Part shown: piece after piece, positions 33,904-42,277 of the stretch
Layout: each line of letters begins with the position of its first letter
How positions within the stretch are numbered: the stretch's first letter is position 1
Assembly: GCA_947361615.1 (NCBI GenBank)
Contig: CANAJP010000009.1
Span: 1-42,277 of the forward strand
DNA: 42,277 nt
Direction of reading: 5' to 3'
Source of the DNA: an uncultured Candidatus Melainabacteria bacterium
Lineage (GTDB): Bacteria > Cyanobacteriota > Vampirovibrionia > Gastranaerophilales > Gastranaerophilaceae
The notes under the pieces: model-generated
What the model was told of the DNA's origin: nothing
Databases searched by the model: none
What the model saw: only the letters and a program-made list of their open reading frames with translations
Program-made: the position numbers and the translations under genes

Positions 33904-33949
<46 letters not shown>

Positions 33950-34108: not shown

Positions 34109-35182
34109 ATGGCAGAGATTAAAAAACGCGTTAAGAAAAATGGCAAAATTAGTTACACGGCATCTATAAGAATTAAAGGTTATCCGACAATGAGTGCAAC
34201 CTTTGAACGTTTGACGGACGCTAAAACATGGATTGGTGAACATGAAAGTAAAATGAAACGCGGCAAGAAAATTAAATATGCTGAGGCTATCAAGCATACA
34301 TTAAGCGAACTCATAGACCGATATATTGAAGAAGAGTTGCCAAATCGCAAATCAGACCAAGCAAAATTTAAAATGCAACTGGGTTGGTGGAAAGAAAGGA
34401 TAGGAGCCTATTTGCTTTCAGAAGTTACTCCAAGCCTTTTATCACAGTGCAAGGATACTTTGTCTAAGGAGCCAAGTTTACACCCCGTAAAAGGACGTAC
34501 AACGCGTTCTGGTGCCACTATTAACCGATATATGGCTTGTCTTTCTATTGTGTTTTCCCTTGCTGTTAATGAATGGGAATGGATGGAAGAAAATCCTATG
34601 CTTAAAGTTTCTAAAAAGCCGGAAACACGTGGGCGTGTTAGATATTTAAGTGAAGAGGAAAAAAGAAATCTGTTAGCAGAATGCAAGAAAATTTCAAAAG
34701 AATTGTATTTGCTTGTTTTAATTGCTGTAACATCCGGTGCAAGACATGGGGAAATTATTAATTTGAAATGGCAAAATATAGATTTTAATAATAGGTTGTA
34801 TCATTTTCTTGATACAAAAAATGGTGAAGATAGAGGCGTGCCGATTTCACACATCGCTTTACAAGAACTCAAAGAGTTTTCAAAAGTTCGTAATATTAAA
34901 ACGGATTATGTTTTTGGCAACAAAGACGGAAAATTGATGTATTTGACAGATAAATTTGAAAAAGCTGTTGAACTAGCGGGAATAACAGATTTTCATTTCC
35001 ACGATTTAAGACATACCGCGGCAAGCTATTTAGCGATGAATGGTGCAAGTTTACTTGAAATCGCTGAAATTCTAGGGCATAAAACCCTTGCAATGGTAAA
35101 AAGATATTCACACCTAACACAAAAGCACACCGCAAGCCTTATTGATAAGATGACAGAAAAGGAATTTGGCGGCTTTGCTTGA
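34109..35182 (+). CDS. int: Tyrosine recombinase (integrase)
   Basis: A 357-residue protein. The N-terminal arm-binding domain (MAEIKKRVKKNGKISYTASI) is followed by a SAM-like core-binding domain (about 70-165) and the catalytic domain. Catalytic residues are visible: Arg in SGARHGEI, His-x-x-Arg in FHDLRHTAAS, His in LGHKTLAM and the nucleophile Tyr in VKRYSHLT. It should catalyse integration at the tRNA-Met half and excision. AGGG precedes the ATG. Confidence 0.95.
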   Translation: MAEIKKRVKKNGKISYTASIRIKGYPTMSATFERLTDAKTWIGEHESKMKRGKKIKYAEAIKHTLSELIDRYIEEELPNRKSDQAKFKMQLGWWKERIGAYLLSEVTPSLLSQCKDTLSKEPSLHPVKGRTTRSGATINRYMACLSIVFSLAVNEWEWMEENPMLKVSKKPETRGRVRYLSEEEKRNLLAECKKISKELYLLVLIAVTSGARHGEIINLKWQNIDFNNRLYHFLDTKNGEDRGVPISHIALQELKEFSKVRNIKTDYVFGNKDGKLMYLTDKFEKAVELAGITDFHFHDLRHTAASYLAMNGASLLEIAEILGHKTLAMVKRYSHLTQKHTASLIDKMTEKEFGGFA

Positions 35183-35460: not shown

Positions 35461-35676
35461 ATGAGTTTAAATAACAATCTGTTGACACTTCAGCAATTCA
35501 ACGAGCTTTACCCGGCATTTACTTTGGGAACGTTACGAAGATTGATTTTTAATGCAAGTAATAATGGTTTTAATAAAGTTATAAGACGTATCAGTCCGAC
35601 AGGTGGTCGAGGACGGATATTTATTAATGTATCAGCGTTCTTTGAATGGGTAGAAGAACAAAACAGCGTAGCCTAG
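35461..35676 (+). CDS. Small excisionase-like / AlpA-type DNA-binding protein
   Basis: A 71-residue protein. It has a winged-helix pattern (LLTLQQFNELYPAFTLGTLRRLIF ... GRIFINVSAFFEWVEEQ, split here) as in excisionases and MerR-like helix-turn-helix proteins of mobile elements. It lies 278 bp after int, on the same strand. It probably sets recombination direction or regulates the next gene. Confidence 0.7.
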   Translation: MSLNNNLLTLQQFNELYPAFTLGTLRRLIFNASNNGFNKVIRRISPTGGRGRIFINVSAFFEWVEEQNSVA

Positions 35677-35688
35677 AAAGGAGTTAAT

Positions 35689-35991
35689 ATGGCAGATAGT
35701 TCAAAATATTATATGGTTTGGGATTGGACAAGAGAGCGGTTAGGGTTTAAAAATCATGCCGAAATGATTGTGTTTAATTTCGTTTACGGATTAAATCTGA
35801 ATGATAAATTTTATCGAGGTTCTGCAAAATATCTAGCGGACCATGCTTGCACATCAATAAGTACAATACGTCGTGCGGTTAAAAGTTTGGCGCAAAGAGG
35901 TTTGATTTCAGTGGAGTACGGGAAATGCCCTGCTGGAAAATGTTGGATTTTGAATGTTCTTGTTAATGAAGAAGATGATTTTGCTGGATAA
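35689..35991 (+). CDS. Winged-helix DNA-binding protein of phage/plasmid replication type
   Basis: A 100-residue protein. The pattern MIVFNFVYGLNLNDKFYRGSAKYLADH followed by SISTIRRAVKSLAQRGLISVEYG matches the N-terminal winged-helix domains seen in replication initiators and other mobile-element proteins. Only that domain is present, so it may be a regulator or a shortened initiator. Ribosome binding site AAAGGAG. It is 12 bases after the previous gene. Confidence 0.72.
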   Translation: MADSSKYYMVWDWTRERLGFKNHAEMIVFNFVYGLNLNDKFYRGSAKYLADHACTSISTIRRAVKSLAQRGLISVEYGKCPAGKCWILNVLVNEEDDFAG

Positions 35992-36394: not shown

Positions 36395-36718
36395 TTATAG
36401 TAAAGATTTGACTAATTTATATAAAATTTGTAATCTATCCTTATCAGACTTTAGAAATTCAACTTTCTGAATAATATAATTATACATATCGTCTTCTTTA
36501 TTATCATTAAACGTAAAAAGTTCATTCGGTGTAATGTCAAGAAGTTCAATAATTTTTTCAAGAGTTTGGGCTGTCATAAAAGCATTGCCCGTTTCAATAC
36601 TACTTAGAGTGTTAGTTGCAATACCTATTTTTTCGGCGAACGATTCTTGACTGAATCCTTTGATTTTTCTAAGGTTTTGGATTCGTTTACCTAATTGTTG
36701 TTGAATATAATTTTTCAT
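36395..36718 (-). CDS. XRE-family repressor-like regulator
   Basis: A 107-residue protein. The helix-turn-helix (LGKRIQNLRKIKGFSQESFA, then KIGIATNTLSSIETG) spans about residues 9-65, and a short helical tail probably dimerises. The start at 36718 (MKNYIQQQ) follows GAGG; the longer frame to 36778 crosses the operator. It is the only minus-strand gene of the element and is divergent from the cargo, the usual layout of a master repressor. Confidence 0.88.
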   Translation of the reverse strand: MKNYIQQQLGKRIQNLRKIKGFSQESFAEKIGIATNTLSSIETGNAFMTAQTLEKIIELLDITPNELFTFNDNKEDDMYNYIIQKVEFLKSDKDRLQILYKLVKSLL

Positions 36719-36773
36719 TAAACTAACCTCAAAATAATTATAAAAGGGAAATTGAACTAATCTAACAATGTTT

Positions 36774-36808
36774 AACATGTTGACGATACAGCCAAAACAT
36801 GTTATAAT
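36774..36808 (+). promoter_or_regulatory. Cargo promoter with twin palindromic operators
   Basis: TTGACG (36780-36785), 17 bp and TATAAT (36803-36808) form a near-consensus promoter. Identical palindromes AACATGTT lie at 36774-36781 (over the -35) and 36796-36803 (touching the -10), exactly 22 bp apart, two helical turns. They are probably bound by the divergent XRE protein. Confidence 0.75.
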
Positions 36809-37844: not shown

Positions 37845-38735
37845 ATGAGCGAATCACTAGAGAATTTAATAGAGGATAATAACATAACCTTTGACGATGT
37901 TGGCGGATTGGAAGATTTAAAAGAGGAAATTCGTTTAAGTATTATTTATCCATTCAAAAATCCTGATTTGTATATTCAATATGGCAAGAAAGCTGGCGGA
38001 GGTTTACTTTTATATGGTCCTCCGGGATGTGGCAAAACTTATATTGCCAAAGCTACTGCAAATGAATGCGAGGCTTCTTTTATAAACATTTCACTTGTTG
38101 ATGTGCTAGATATGTATGTTGGTGAATCGGAAAGAAAGTTGCATGAAATATTTAATCTTGCAAGAAGAAAGTCGCCGTCAGTAATTTTTATTGATGAAGT
38201 GGATGCACTCGGCAATGATAGAATGAAAACAGGAACTAATGTTACAGCTAGAACCCTCGTAAATCAGTTTTTAACAGAGCTTGACGGAGTTGCAAGTAAT
38301 AACAACCAAATTATGGTAATAGGCTCGACAAACGTACCTTGGTTTGTTGATACCGCATTAAAACGTCCAGGACGTTTTGATAAAACATTATTTGTTCCTC
38401 CACCAGAATTACAAACAAGAGCAGATATTTTCAAGTTGAATTTAGCAGGAAAACCTGTTTCGCAAATAGATTATAATAAATTAGCAAATAACACAAAAGA
38501 GTTTTCCCCGGCGGATATAGTTGCAGTATGTCGTGTTGCAATTGATAATGCAATTAGAAAAGCAATAAAAACAGGTGAAAAAGATTTACTTACCACAGAA
38601 TCGCTATTGGATGCGATAAAAGAGGTTAAACCGTCAACAATAGAGTGGTTTGAAACGGCAAAGAATTATGTCAAGTATAGCAACCAAAGCGGTCACTATG
38701 ATGATGTTATGCGTTATCTAAATAAAAGGTTATAA
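37845..38735 (+). CDS. AAA+ ATPase of the Vps4/Cdc48/FtsH-like group
   Basis: A 296-residue single-ring AAA protein. It has DDVGGLEDLKEEI at the start, Walker A GPPGCGKT (58-65), pore-loop region MYVGESERKL, Walker B VIFIDEVDAL, sensor STNVPW and arginine-finger RPGRFD. A short C-terminal helical tail follows (WFETAKNYVKYSNQSGHYDD). There is no protease domain, substrate domain or membrane helix. Such rings unfold or remodel proteins. It is followed after 2 bases by a membrane TPR protein, which is the likely partner. Ribosome binding site AAAGGA. Confidence 0.88.
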   Translation: MSESLENLIEDNNITFDDVGGLEDLKEEIRLSIIYPFKNPDLYIQYGKKAGGGLLLYGPPGCGKTYIAKATANECEASFINISLVDVLDMYVGESERKLHEIFNLARRKSPSVIFIDEVDALGNDRMKTGTNVTARTLVNQFLTELDGVASNNNQIMVIGSTNVPWFVDTALKRPGRFDKTLFVPPPELQTRADIFKLNLAGKPVSQIDYNKLANNTKEFSPADIVAVCRVAIDNAIRKAIKTGEKDLLTTESLLDAIKEVKPSTIEWFETAKNYVKYSNQSGHYDDVMRYLNKRL

Positions 38736-38737
38736 TA

Positions 38738-39631
38738 ATGATACCTAATGTTGAACAGGTTTATAATAAAGCTACTATTGCAATCCAATTAAGAAAATAT
38801 AATGTTGCAGAACAATTATTACAAGAGCTATTAACCCAAAATCCTAATGATTCATGGGTGTATATTTTAATGGGCGCAATATGGTATAATAGATGTGATT
38901 ATGGTCATGCTATTGAATTTATAAAACAAGCTATTGCCCTTGACACAAGTTGTCCTGATTATTATAGAGTATATTGTTCTTGTTTGAATGCAAGTGGAGA
39001 GTATCAAGAAGCATTAAGTGTTTCAGATGAGGGACTAATGTTGGACCCTACTCACGTAAGATTAATGTATGAAAGAGCTTTGGCACTAAAAGCTCTTGGT
39101 AAACTTGATAGAGCTGAAGACGTCACAAAATATTTGTTAAAAAAAGACCCCAATAATGATAGTAATCATAATCTTTTGGCTACAATATATGCCGAAAAAA
39201 GTCAGCTAGATGAAGCAAATTTGGAATTCTTAAAAGCATTAGAGTTAAACCCTAATAATTCAGGAACTTATAACTCTTATGCAATGATGAAGTTTAATAA
39301 AGAAGAAAACAAAGAGGATGAGTCTATAGAAATGCTACAGGAATCTTTACGTCTTAATCCTGAAAACAAAACTGTTCAAAAAAATTTAGAGTATGTAATT
39401 AATTATAAAAAACGGAAGCCTTTTAATAATTTTATATTTATAATACTTTGTTGTTTATTTGTTATTTTGGGAATTTCAATTTTTGGTTATTATATTTATG
39501 ATTTAATTGCTATTCAAAAAATGCCAATAACACATGTAATTATATGTTTAGTTATAGGTGTAATATGGCAAATCATAGAATATTATTTAAAGTCACGCAA
39601 AAAGCAAGAATCTACTGCTTCAAACAATTAA
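38738..39631 (+). CDS. Membrane-anchored TPR protein
   Basis: A 297-residue protein. About five or six tetratricopeptide repeats fill residues 5-215 (for example WVYILMGAIWYNRCDYGHAI; LLATIYAEKSQLDEANLEF). Two C-terminal membrane helices (about 226-248 and 255-277) and a basic tail follow. The TPR region therefore faces the cytoplasm. It is coupled to the AAA gene, so the pair may form a membrane-bound remodelling or sensing complex. Confidence 0.82.
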   Translation: MIPNVEQVYNKATIAIQLRKYNVAEQLLQELLTQNPNDSWVYILMGAIWYNRCDYGHAIEFIKQAIALDTSCPDYYRVYCSCLNASGEYQEALSVSDEGLMLDPTHVRLMYERALALKALGKLDRAEDVTKYLLKKDPNNDSNHNLLATIYAEKSQLDEANLEFLKALELNPNNSGTYNSYAMMKFNKEENKEDESIEMLQESLRLNPENKTVQKNLEYVINYKKRKPFNNFIFIILCCLFVILGISIFGYYIYDLIAIQKMPITHVIICLVIGVIWQIIEYYLKSRKKQESTASNN

Positions 39632-39719: not shown

Positions 39720-40319
39720 ATGGCGAACTTGATATTTGAAAAATTTGCAGACTATGTTTTAAAAAAAGAAAAATATAAGAAAAGTTTTGTACATCAAACA
39801 ATTAATCAGGGTAAGTATGAACCTCAACAAGATTATTATTTGCAACTACGAACAAGATTAATTTCTTTACTTAGAAAAAATATACCATTAAATGAATTAG
39901 AAAATATAATAGGTAATATATCAGAGAGAAAAACTGGTAACTATACAACATTAATTGAAAATATACAAAGTTTTTTAAATGGAAAGCGCTATAAGTGGGT
40001 TGAACCTATAAAAAATGAGATTGATTATTCTGGTTTAACTATAAAAGTAAATCCTGAAATAGGACTTGAATTAGATGGAACAATATACTATATAAAAATG
40101 TATTTTAAGCAAAAAGAAATAAGCATTCAAAAGGTTAGTATATTAGAAAAGATGATGCAAGATGCTTGTAAAACTGAAACGGTAAATGTTAAACTTGCGA
40201 TATGGGATATAAGACGTTGTAAAATTTATTCTAAGGAATCTGAAGAAGAAATATCTATTGATTATGACTTACAAAAAGAAGCCTTAAGTTGGCTTAAGTA
40301 TGCAAACGATGAGGCTTAA
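39720..40319 (+). CDS. Protein of unknown function in the element
   Basis: A 199-residue protein. A helical N-terminal half is followed by a beta-rich part with IGLELDGTIYYIKMYFKQKEIS. This has the E..D....K spacing seen in some degenerate PD-(D/E)xK nuclease-like folds, but the match is not strong enough to assign. There is no signal peptide. Ribosome binding site GGGAGAAAG. It stands between the AAA/TPR pair and the kinase pair and could belong to either. Confidence 0.65.
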   Translation: MANLIFEKFADYVLKKEKYKKSFVHQTINQGKYEPQQDYYLQLRTRLISLLRKNIPLNELENIIGNISERKTGNYTTLIENIQSFLNGKRYKWVEPIKNEIDYSGLTIKVNPEIGLELDGTIYYIKMYFKQKEISIQKVSILEKMMQDACKTETVNVKLAIWDIRRCKIYSKESEEEISIDYDLQKEALSWLKYANDEA

Positions 40320-40394: not shown

Positions 40395-41321
40395 GTGGCA
40401 AAAAATATTGAGCTGGTACAAATTAATAATAAAGATTGGACAGAAATTCAAGGCTTCTCATCTAAAGGTCGAAGAGTTAAATCTTGGTATGAAAGAGTAA
40501 GTTCAAGAGAAGTCTTTTTATACAAAGAGCCTAAAATATATTCAAGTACTAACTTTGTTACGAAGGAAATTTGGACAGAATACATTGCATACAAATTAGG
40601 GACTTTTTTAGGCTTAAATATTCCTGAAGCTATTCCTGCTACGGATGGCGAACATTATGGTATTTTAATAAAAAGTTTTTTAGAAAGAGGGGAGGCTGGT
40701 ATGCCAGCTATTGAATTAGCCGAGGCTAGTGATATACTTCACCATTTGAACTCTAAGCAGCCTCATAATCTTAGTACTATCAAACTTTTATTGCATACGG
40801 AGATGCTAGAAAAAGATTCTTGGGAAAATTTTAAACGTATGCTTATTTTTGATTGCCTTATAGGAAATAACGATAGACACGATGAAAACTGGGGCTTGTT
40901 ATATGGTTCAGCGATTTCTCAGATACGATTAGCGCCTATATATGACAATGCATCTTGTTTAACTTCTGGCGAGAATGAGGAAAAGGTAGAAAAATTGTTA
41001 CAAAATGAAACCATGTTAAATCAGTATATAAATAATAGCAAGCCTCCTAATTTATATTTAAATACTAGTGATAGTACGCATTACAAGCATTTTGAGATAA
41101 TACAATATTTAATTGATAAAGAGCAGAATAGTACAGTTGATTTAATTGGGGATATAGTAAAAAAAGATTATTTGAGTTATACTAAATATGTTCTAGAACA
41201 AATACATCATATAGATGTCCCAGATTTGTATAAATTAAGTGATAATAGGGTTGAATTAATTTATAAAATATTAGAACTAAGAAAGAAAAAACTAGAGGAA
41301 TTAATTAATGTGTACATTTGA
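40395..41321 (+). CDS. HipA-like Ser/Thr kinase
   Basis: A 308-residue protein. The ATP-site Lys is in EVFLYKEPK, the helix-C Glu in WTEYIAYKLG, the catalytic loop is FDCLIGNNDRHDENWGLL, and the metal-binding Asp is in LAPIYDNASCL. These fit the HipA/CtkA-type kinase fold. The HipA N-terminal subdomain is missing, as in HipT of three-gene HipBST systems. GTG start without ribosome binding site. It overlaps the HIRAN gene by 14 bases, so the two are coupled. Confidence 0.8.
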   Translation: MAKNIELVQINNKDWTEIQGFSSKGRRVKSWYERVSSREVFLYKEPKIYSSTNFVTKEIWTEYIAYKLGTFLGLNIPEAIPATDGEHYGILIKSFLERGEAGMPAIELAEASDILHHLNSKQPHNLSTIKLLLHTEMLEKDSWENFKRMLIFDCLIGNNDRHDENWGLLYGSAISQIRLAPIYDNASCLTSGENEEKVEKLLQNETMLNQYINNSKPPNLYLNTSDSTHYKHFEIIQYLIDKEQNSTVDLIGDIVKKDYLSYTKYVLEQIHHIDVPDLYKLSDNRVELIYKILELRKKKLEELINVYI

Positions 41322-41997
41322 TACCGACAAAATTTATTTAACCTGGAGAAAAGATGTTGATAAGCGCAGGCATATTGTTGGTATATTAAATAGAACTCAA
41401 GATAATAACTATTCATTCATGTATTCAGAAAAGAATGTTATAAATGCAGTTGATGAGGACGGGTTTACTTATTATCCAGCTTTTAATGAAATTGATAAGG
41501 TATACGATGAAAATGTACTTGAAGTTTTTAAAAGACGTTTATTGAATCCTCAACGGAGAGATTATGATGATTTTTTGAATTATTGGGGCGCGGGACAATA
41601 CAAGGACGATACCTTTGCATTGTTAGGTTTAACCGGAGCGAAATTGCTTACTGATAATTTTGAATTTATTGCACCTCATTGTGAGTACCCAGCAAAGTTT
41701 AATACGGATGTTTCTTGGCTTAACATTGGTTCTGACTATATTGTAAATTCTATCAGAGCGCTAAGTAATGATGAGGTTGAGTCAAAAATTTCGTTAGAAT
41801 TGGAGCCTGATAATTTATTTGATATGAAAGCCGTAAAGGTTTTGTTTGAAGATGAAAGATTAGGTTATATCAAAAGTATTCATTGCGAAAATATTTACAA
41901 TGCAATTTCTGTTGATAGGAATGTAAATGTTAAGATTGCTAATATTATTAAAAATGGAACAATAAAAGAAGTTCTTTTAAGAATTAATATAGATTAA
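41308..41997 (+). CDS. HIRAN-domain protein, possible partner of the HipA-like kinase
   Basis: A 229-residue protein. The C-terminal part (about 150-225) matches HIRAN (ISLELEPDNLFDMKAVKVLF ... LGYIKSIHCENIYNAI), a domain that binds DNA ends. The N-terminal part (IYLTWRKDVDKRRHIVGILN ... FTYYPAFNEIDKVY) resembles the HipA N-terminal (HipS-like) subdomain, so kinase and N-domain look split across two genes with HIRAN added. AGAGG precedes the ATG. It could be an inhibitor or a targeting partner; it is the last cargo gene. Confidence 0.68.
   Translation: MCTFDTDKIYLTWRKDVDKRRHIVGILNRTQDNNYSFMYSEKNVINAVDEDGFTYYPAFNEIDKVYDENVLEVFKRRLLNPQRRDYDDFLNYWGAGQYKDDTFALLGLTGAKLLTDNFEFIAPHCEYPAKFNTDVSWLNIGSDYIVNSIRALSNDEVESKISLELEPDNLFDMKAVKVLFEDERLGYIKSIHCENIYNAISVDRNVNVKIANIIKNGTIKEVLLRINID

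Positions 41998-42211: not shown

Positions 42212-42277
<66 letters not shown>

Follow-up and report, generated by a model that had tools for sequence, protein, structure and literature searches.

The last two cargo genes of an integrative element in a gut Gastranaerophilales genome are, judged by sequence and predicted structure, a hipIN module: a short HipA-like kinase gene of the hipI type is followed by an overlapping gene of the hipN type, whose product joins a HipS-like domain to a HIRAN domain. Modules of this kind have been predicted since 2021, when Gerdes, Baerentsen and Brodersen defined hipIN, its HipS-HIRAN antitoxin HipN and the fused form HipL; the accessible text of that paper also raises binding of single-stranded DNA and proposes that phage DNA ends trigger abortive infection, so that this idea is already published (PMC8262856). 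What is new here are the pairing counts, an asymmetry between the two genes in Cyanobacteriota, the occurrence of the fused form in a P2 hotspot, an invariant pair of arginines, and the loss of the GxR motif in the clade of our module. We give about an even chance (roughly 0.5) to the reading that HipI is a toxin restrained by HipN, and that a signal sensed by HIRAN would set growth arrest free and so protect or stabilise the element.

The DNA analysed, hereafter the window, is a stretch of 42,277 nucleotides on contig C9, which belongs to a genome of 1.83 Mb. The integrative element that carries the pair as its final cargo is 8.3 kb long and has the following features.

33904-33949, plus strand: attL, 46 bp identical to the 3' part of a tRNA gene
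34109-35182, plus strand: tyrosine recombinase (integrase; Phage_integrase, 2.7e-34)
35461-35676, plus strand: small 71-aa ORF after the integrase gene, putative excisionase by position only
35689-35991, plus strand: replication-initiation-like small protein (phrog_678, 6e-5)
36395-36778, minus strand: Cro/C1-type HTH regulator
37845-38735, plus strand: AAA ATPase (CDC48/PAN-like module), other cargo
38738-39631, plus strand: other cargo, a TPR protein that has a hydrophobic stretch at its C-terminus
39720-40319, plus strand: 199-aa protein without significant family match, its gene ending 75 nt before that of the kinase
40395-41321, plus strand: hipI-type kinase gene, 308 aa, GTG start (ORF, Pfam, PADLOC and structural model)
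Within the kinase, roles by homology: Gly-rich loop G25, Lys K44, Glu E62, catalytic D160/N165, Mg-binding D184
41308-41997, plus strand: hipN-type partner gene, 229 aa, ATG start
41308-41679, plus strand: HipS-like / HipA N-subdomain-1 domain of the partner, residues 1-124; its Arg77 and Arg83 are invariant
41680-41994, plus strand: HIRAN-fold domain of the partner, residues 125-229
42215-42260, plus strand: attR, a 46-bp copy inside the tRNA gene, which lies on the minus strand (anticodon CAT) and runs off the contig end

The original prediction had located the pair where a mobile element ends, and the integrase, the 46-bp tRNA repeats and an empty site in congeners make this location exact. 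The integrase gene lies immediately inside the left repeat, and the G+C content of the element is lower, 31% against 38%. The empty site is seen in two congeneric genomes (L321 from G003 and L323 from G001), where a single 46-bp copy is flanked by SecF and CheR on one side and by the genes of another contig of our genome, C27, on the other. Contig C27 is likely the right flank of the element, since the terminal 55 bases of the window recur at its positions 1-55. The window contig itself ends within the tRNA gene that serves as attachment site, and the assembly break is probably due to the repeated tRNA end.

Several lines of evidence support the assignment of the pair. First, the upstream gene encodes a core HipA-like Ser/Thr kinase, as far as homology and modelling can tell. 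It is short and HipA-homologous (Pfam HipA_C, 2.8e-12), its AlphaFold2 model has a pLDDT of 93.8 and a pTM of 0.92, and the Gly-rich, Lys, Glu, catalytic and Mg-binding residues are conserved. E62, D153, D160, R161, H162, N165 and D184 never vary in an alignment of 64 diverse homologues, where G25 (62/63) and K44 (all 63 sequences with a residue there) are near-invariant. Structural alignment of the model with VIA-align gave Z 29.2 for CtkA (282 residues, 2.5 A), Z 19.0 for HipA, Z 18.4 for HipT of L. pneumophila and Z 16.9 for HipT of E. coli. The profile of the kinase pairs with HipA from residue 150 onwards, which means that N-subdomain-1 is absent, as had been claimed from the letters of the sequence. 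The first HipA residue aligned in fold comparisons was 119 in seven rows, 124 in one and 64-67 in seven, and none of these rows spans the N-subdomain from its beginning.

Second, the downstream gene encodes a protein of two domains (model pLDDT 92.7, pTM 0.87). In fold comparisons, residues 7-124 matched N-subdomain-1 of HipA (2wiu; Z 12.2, 104 residues, rmsd 2.5 A) and this N-terminal half also matched HipS of L. pneumophila (Z 11.1, 23% identity), while E. coli HipS was absent among the matches listed. Residues 126-229 matched HIRAN domains (3k2y, Z 12.8; HLTF with ssDNA, Z 10.0). A Foldseek search with the same model placed HIRAN at the top, with HipA as a weak match (E 0.009 or higher). 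At the level of profiles, residues 4-114 pair with HipA N-termini in hhalign (E 4e-5, probability 69.6), and a profile of 69 HipN sequences matches the HIRAN domain of HLTF (1.7e-4) and lp_0118 (6.7e-8). As a single sequence, the partner scores 15.2 bits with Pfam HIRAN, under the gathering threshold of 24.7, which is a cut-off and not a biological property; the HIRAN call rests on profile and fold. The core signature of HIRAN is present in the HipN alignment, with N169 in 68/69, A175 in 65/69 and G186 in 69/69 sequences. The two-domain reading, drawn from profiles and a predicted model, is therefore secure despite the sub-threshold score of the single sequence.

Third, the two genes are linked. 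They have 14 nt in common, read in different frames, and the same overlap between homologous proteins recurs at three related loci (L061, L062 and L063), where identity to the window proteins is 56-68% for the kinase and 64-81% for the partner; the identical overlap rules out a chance overlap of ORFs. Among the genome contigs searched, the nearest named relatives are metagenome-assembled genomes of Candidatus Gastranaerophilales (L061 and L062). A fourth locus, L003, has kin of both proteins (kinase 45%, partner 52%), its kinase gene carrying an in-frame stop. Promoter-like matches were at chance level (12 against 11.3 expected), and the two terminator-like sites detected lie on the minus strand.

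This linkage extends far beyond the Gastranaerophilales. Genome contigs were scanned with a kinase alignment, and the best 80 of 415 relatives were analysed; a gene for a full HipS-HIRAN protein follows the kinase gene in 74 of these 80 loci, a figure that is conditional on similarity because the query was built from hipIN kinases. Of the other six among the best 80, three have a HipS-like gene without HIRAN after the kinase (L102, L125 and L140); at L101 the contig ends within the partner gene, at L136 a frameshift splits the partner, and L138 has no partner. According to the record titles, the best 80 come from Cyanobacteria, Proteobacteria, Planctomycetota, Chloroflexi, Nitrospira, Latescibacterota, Actinobacteria and others. 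An overlap of 4 nt was found in 37 of the 69 loci that have one kinase and one partner with lengths within set ranges. Among viral sequences (IMG/VR), 64 of 65 loci, many of them near-identical prophages, have the partner, adjoining in 61 cases and fused in three; two of the 61 adjoining partners are HipS-like only (L251 and L252), and the one remaining locus is a weak kinase-like match without partner.

The original prediction hinged on a likeness of the N-terminal part of the partner to the HipA N-subdomain in a structural model, on an active site retained by kinase homologues and on linkage of the two genes in other genomes, and it held on all of these points: the likeness is seen in the predicted model (Z 12.2 with HipA, Z 11.1 with HipS) as well as in the hhalign pairing, the catalytic residues are invariant in 64 homologues, and the pairing recurs in 74 of the best 80 of 415 relatives and in 64/65 viral loci. 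The overlap of the two genes at 41308-41321 and a HIRAN domain in the partner had likewise been read correctly, the latter from a sequence that by itself stays below the Pfam cut-off.

Some loci depart from the usual arrangement. In uncultured Clostridium (L102, 4156-6558; L140, 3942-6501), a single 121-aa HipS-like gene without HIRAN lies between two HipI-like kinase genes, and both kinases retain all catalytic residues checked. At L148, another locus of the L102 genome, a HipS-like gene precedes one whose product no longer has the kinase motif. At L162 (145-2737; genome G834, of the same phylum as G483), the gene after that of the kinase encodes 573 aa that begin with a HipS-like region (Pfam Couple_hipA, 4.6e-10) and continue with weak HTH matches and a C-terminus without family assignment, so that a HipS lid is coupled there to a module other than HIRAN.

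The pair seems to move as a separate unit, since the other genes of the element do not travel with it in relatives. None of them lies beside the pair at L061 or L063; near it, L062 has a generic TPR match alone and L003 an HTH match alone, and the 199-aa gene was not found beside the pair in any of the four relatives compared (L003, L061, L062 and L063). The 199-aa, TPR and AAA genes were accordingly rejected as parts of the system, being absent beside the pair at L061, L063 and the short locus L003. As the neighbours of the pair vary among the relatives compared, the local cargo lends no support to a defence island. A scan for integrase motifs near the pair (0/80 and 1/65) was discarded because it missed recombinase-like ORFs visible in L061. 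Within the element, the AAA ATPase (296 aa, no protease domain found) and the TPR gene lie 2 nt apart (37845-39631); the ATPase matches the IetA models of PADLOC (4e-32), and the two genes that follow it have no IetS match in PADLOC.

The module resembles several known systems. It has the hipIN gene order, a short kinase without N-subdomain-1 and a HipS-like plus HIRAN partner downstream. It differs from the described hipIN modules in its host, which lies outside the HipI subclades named in the accessible text of PMC8262856 (Actinobacteria, Firmicutes, and a mix of Proteobacteria and Cyanobacteria), in the lack of the HIRAN GxR motif in its clade, and in an overlap of 14 nt instead of the common 4 nt. 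Both window proteins match the PADLOC candidates PDC-M03A and PDC-M03B (kinase 3.3e-51, partner 5.1e-37); PDC-M03 is a candidate label only, and the term occurs in none of the papers searched. With HipBST the module shares a split kinase whose missing N-subdomain is supplied as a separate protein. However, HipS lacks HIRAN and its gene precedes that of the kinase, HipB is present, and the inhibitory Trp65, itself kept in some but not all HipS, is not conserved in HipN. Membership in hipBST is ruled out by the downstream partner with HIRAN, by the lack of Trp in the loop and by the absence of an adjacent HTH gene; the original prediction had seen no HipB gene next to the pair, and indeed a search of the element found a single HTH gene, at a distance of 3.6 kb and on the opposite strand (36395-36778). 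A HipA-like kinase with a partner other than HipB is also known from HipAD / DS-6 / PDC-M66, where, according to the available parts of the reports, a HipA kinase with a DUF3037 partner was shown by experiment to provide phage defence and to behave as a toxin-antitoxin pair: the kinase is needed, and cells suffer toxicity when the partner is lost (PMC12548924, PMC13092281). By description, the DUF3037 partner is unrelated to HipS-HIRAN, and PDC-M66A matches the window kinase weakly (E 0.022).

How might the pair work? In the reading that we favour, the HipI kinase would be a toxin kept inactive by the HipN encoded downstream, whose HipS-like domain would substitute for the lid (N-subdomain-1) that HipA has in cis. 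The HIRAN half would be a sensor of DNA ends, single-stranded DNA or another phage- or damage-derived signal, and on meeting its ligand the hold of HipN on the kinase would change. The freed kinase would phosphorylate an essential target, which in relatives is an aminoacyl-tRNA synthetase, and growth would halt before the invader spreads. Located at its end, the pair would protect or stabilise the integrative element. For the window pair we infer lid-type inhibition, toxicity, sensing, target and defence.

HipS inhibits HipT via a residue wedged into the active site, according to the available text of PMC10627512. The Trp-bearing loop of HipS corresponds to residues of about 78-84 in HipN, bounded by Arg77 and Arg83, in a register taken from hhalign and from the ranges of E. 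coli HipS and the HipA N-terminus, and certain to about one residue. Both arginines are invariant in 69/69 HipN sequences. None of the 69 has a Trp at positions 75-91, and Trp is frequent only a few columns beyond the loop, where 29/69 have it in one insert or later column. Since the Trp of HipS has no counterpart in HipN, inhibition cannot use the same contact, and by analogy HipN probably acts like HipS through a different one.

According to the accessible text of PMC8262856, DNA ends are bound by the HIRAN domains of HLTF. A G-x-R stretch is kept in most HipN HIRAN domains (G in 62/69, R in 49/69), whereas the window HipN has W-L-N at this place, and W-x-N is found in it and its three nearest relatives. 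N169 and D172 of HipN align with the N-P-Y-D stretch of HLTF in the profile alignment. Which residues of HLTF contact DNA is an assumption in this comparison. Loss of the GxR motif suggests that DNA binding may be altered or lost in the window clade, and the absence of the motif from this clade makes DNA-end sensing less likely for the window member. DNA sensing is still the best general guess for HipN; it is a weaker one for this branch. The original prediction stood in its split kinase, HipS-like/HIRAN partner, linkage, residues and location, while the link to DNA ends that it drew from HIRAN appears weaker than supposed.

The fused form places the same modules in phages. Escherichia phage 899 encodes a single protein of 519-547 aa (two start choices) that contains kinase, HipS-like and HIRAN parts, and phrog_26212 (HipL) matches both window proteins; when HipL was aligned jointly with separate kinases and partners, the kinase C-termini were misplaced. 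HipL has the three modules of the window pair in the same order, but as one fused protein in the hotspot of P2-like prophages beside a 3'-5' exonuclease. In phage 899 it lies between the replication endonuclease and portal genes, next to that exonuclease gene. Fused HipL was found in 61/5426 E. coli genomes, always on the chromosome, and the two of the 61 regions that were examined are both P2-like prophages with the gene arrangement of phage 899. This gpA-gpQ interval of P2 is a hotspot of anti-phage systems (Rousset et al. 2022, PMC9122126, as seen in part); the words HIRAN and HipA are absent from the main text of that paper. Two-gene pairs also occur on phages, adjoining the integrase gene in Clostridioides phage phiCDKH02 (C. 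difficile) and in a Vibrio phage. Tentatively, and with clearly more doubt than for the main reading, hipIN and hipL could form one sensor-kinase immune family in which HIRAN would read phage or damaged DNA and gate a HipA-type kinase via a lid with the invariant arginine pair, the HIRAN domain of the Gastranaerophilales being re-tuned to a different ligand.

The exonuclease directly upstream of HipL is of the DEDDh type in P2-like prophages (L237, 2790-4994; L313, 7356-9560). It may be compared with a published link between deoxydinucleotidases and HIRAN-HipA genes: in the portion available of a 2025 paper, HipA and HIRAN genes adjoin about a third of deoxydinucleotidase genes (PMC11706625).

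An unlikely but serious alternative is that the pair is a plain addiction module, in which a kinase toxin and a labile antitoxin would retain the 8.3-kb element by post-segregational killing, and HIRAN would merely tether HipN to DNA or regulate the operon. The position of the pair at the tRNA end of an element whose empty site can be demonstrated in congeners would suit such a role. So would occurrence on plasmids, where a search with the partner gave a single match, to a partner only. On the other hand, HIRAN, which does not belong to the HTH domains that bind operators, is retained in 74 of the best 80 of 415 loci, the pairs at L062 and L063 lie in ordinary chromosomal contexts with no integrase visible within the flanks examined, and the fused form in the P2 hotspot cannot serve as a classical two-protein addiction pair.

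The asymmetry in Cyanobacteriota also speaks for addiction, and it bears on a further alternative. A search starting from the partner in 386 Cyanobacteriota genomes gave 26 full or nearly full HipN loci, one of them (L054) with a truncated partner; 17 have an intact adjoining kinase and nine do not, a kinase fragment being left in four of the nine. Two further strong partner matches (G287 and G311) are omitted from this count. The converse search, starting from the kinase in 292 genomes of this phylum, gave 14 full kinases and one fragment, and none of the 14 intact kinases lacks HipN; a partnerless kinase fragment in G304 is omitted because it is not an intact kinase. The difference (9/26 against 0/14) gives p=0.016 in a Fisher test on samples that are small and related and that come from overlapping genome sets. 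Such a pattern fits a kinase that cannot be maintained without HipN. It would also be expected if the kinase merely needs HipN to work, so that inhibitor and activator are not separated by it.

Still more doubtful than addiction, in our view, is that HipN is an activating or targeting subunit whose HIRAN domain takes an active kinase to DNA-linked substrates, making the pair a two-part effector and not a toxin-antitoxin system. A kinase that is useless alone would explain why no intact kinase (0/14) lacks HipN; the inhibitory Trp of HipS is not conserved in HipN, and the fused form has both halves on one chain. However, the N-terminal half of HipN has its characterised relative in HipS, which is an antitoxin in the available text of PMC10627512, and the survival of HipN after loss of the kinase in 9/26 loci is a better fit to a kept antitoxin, although gene decay can explain it.

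Finally, that the kinase is a secreted effector like CtkA of Helicobacter pylori, its best match by sequence (1.1e-12) and fold (Z 29.2), is very improbable and was rejected for want of supporting context: its gene overlaps that of a HipS-HIRAN protein, none of the element genes searched was recognised as a secretion gene, and the C-terminal tail of CtkA, its proposed secretion signal, is absent or divergent in CtkA homologues (PMC5536186, as seen in part). CtkA remains the closest solved kinase structure; it differs in being a reported T4SS-dependent effector, for which the accessible text of the same paper describes no HipN partner. CtkA-like kinases also occur on mobile elements, namely on a Megamonas plasmid (L241, 2435-3819; 217 bits against CtkA 3akj) and in an unverified phage record (L242, 2330-3759). 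Each is preceded by a small gene, of 136 aa with an overlap of 4 nt at L241, and an ORF of 165 aa that looks HTH-like by eye at L242. This arrangement suggests that CtkA of H. pylori derives from a toxin-antitoxin kinase family.

Searches of a literature that excluded most subscription journals found no experiments on hipIN, HipN, HIRAN in connection with HipA or phage defence, or PDC-M03, and a defensome paper (PMC10924106) contains none of the terms sought. A DNA-end trigger for Hip kinases is likewise not shown in the literature searched. If HIRAN gates a HipA-type kinase, the sensing of DNA ends would be coupled directly to growth arrest, and the one-chain HipL of E. coli P2-like prophages is a natural form of the system that is readily testable in a laboratory host.
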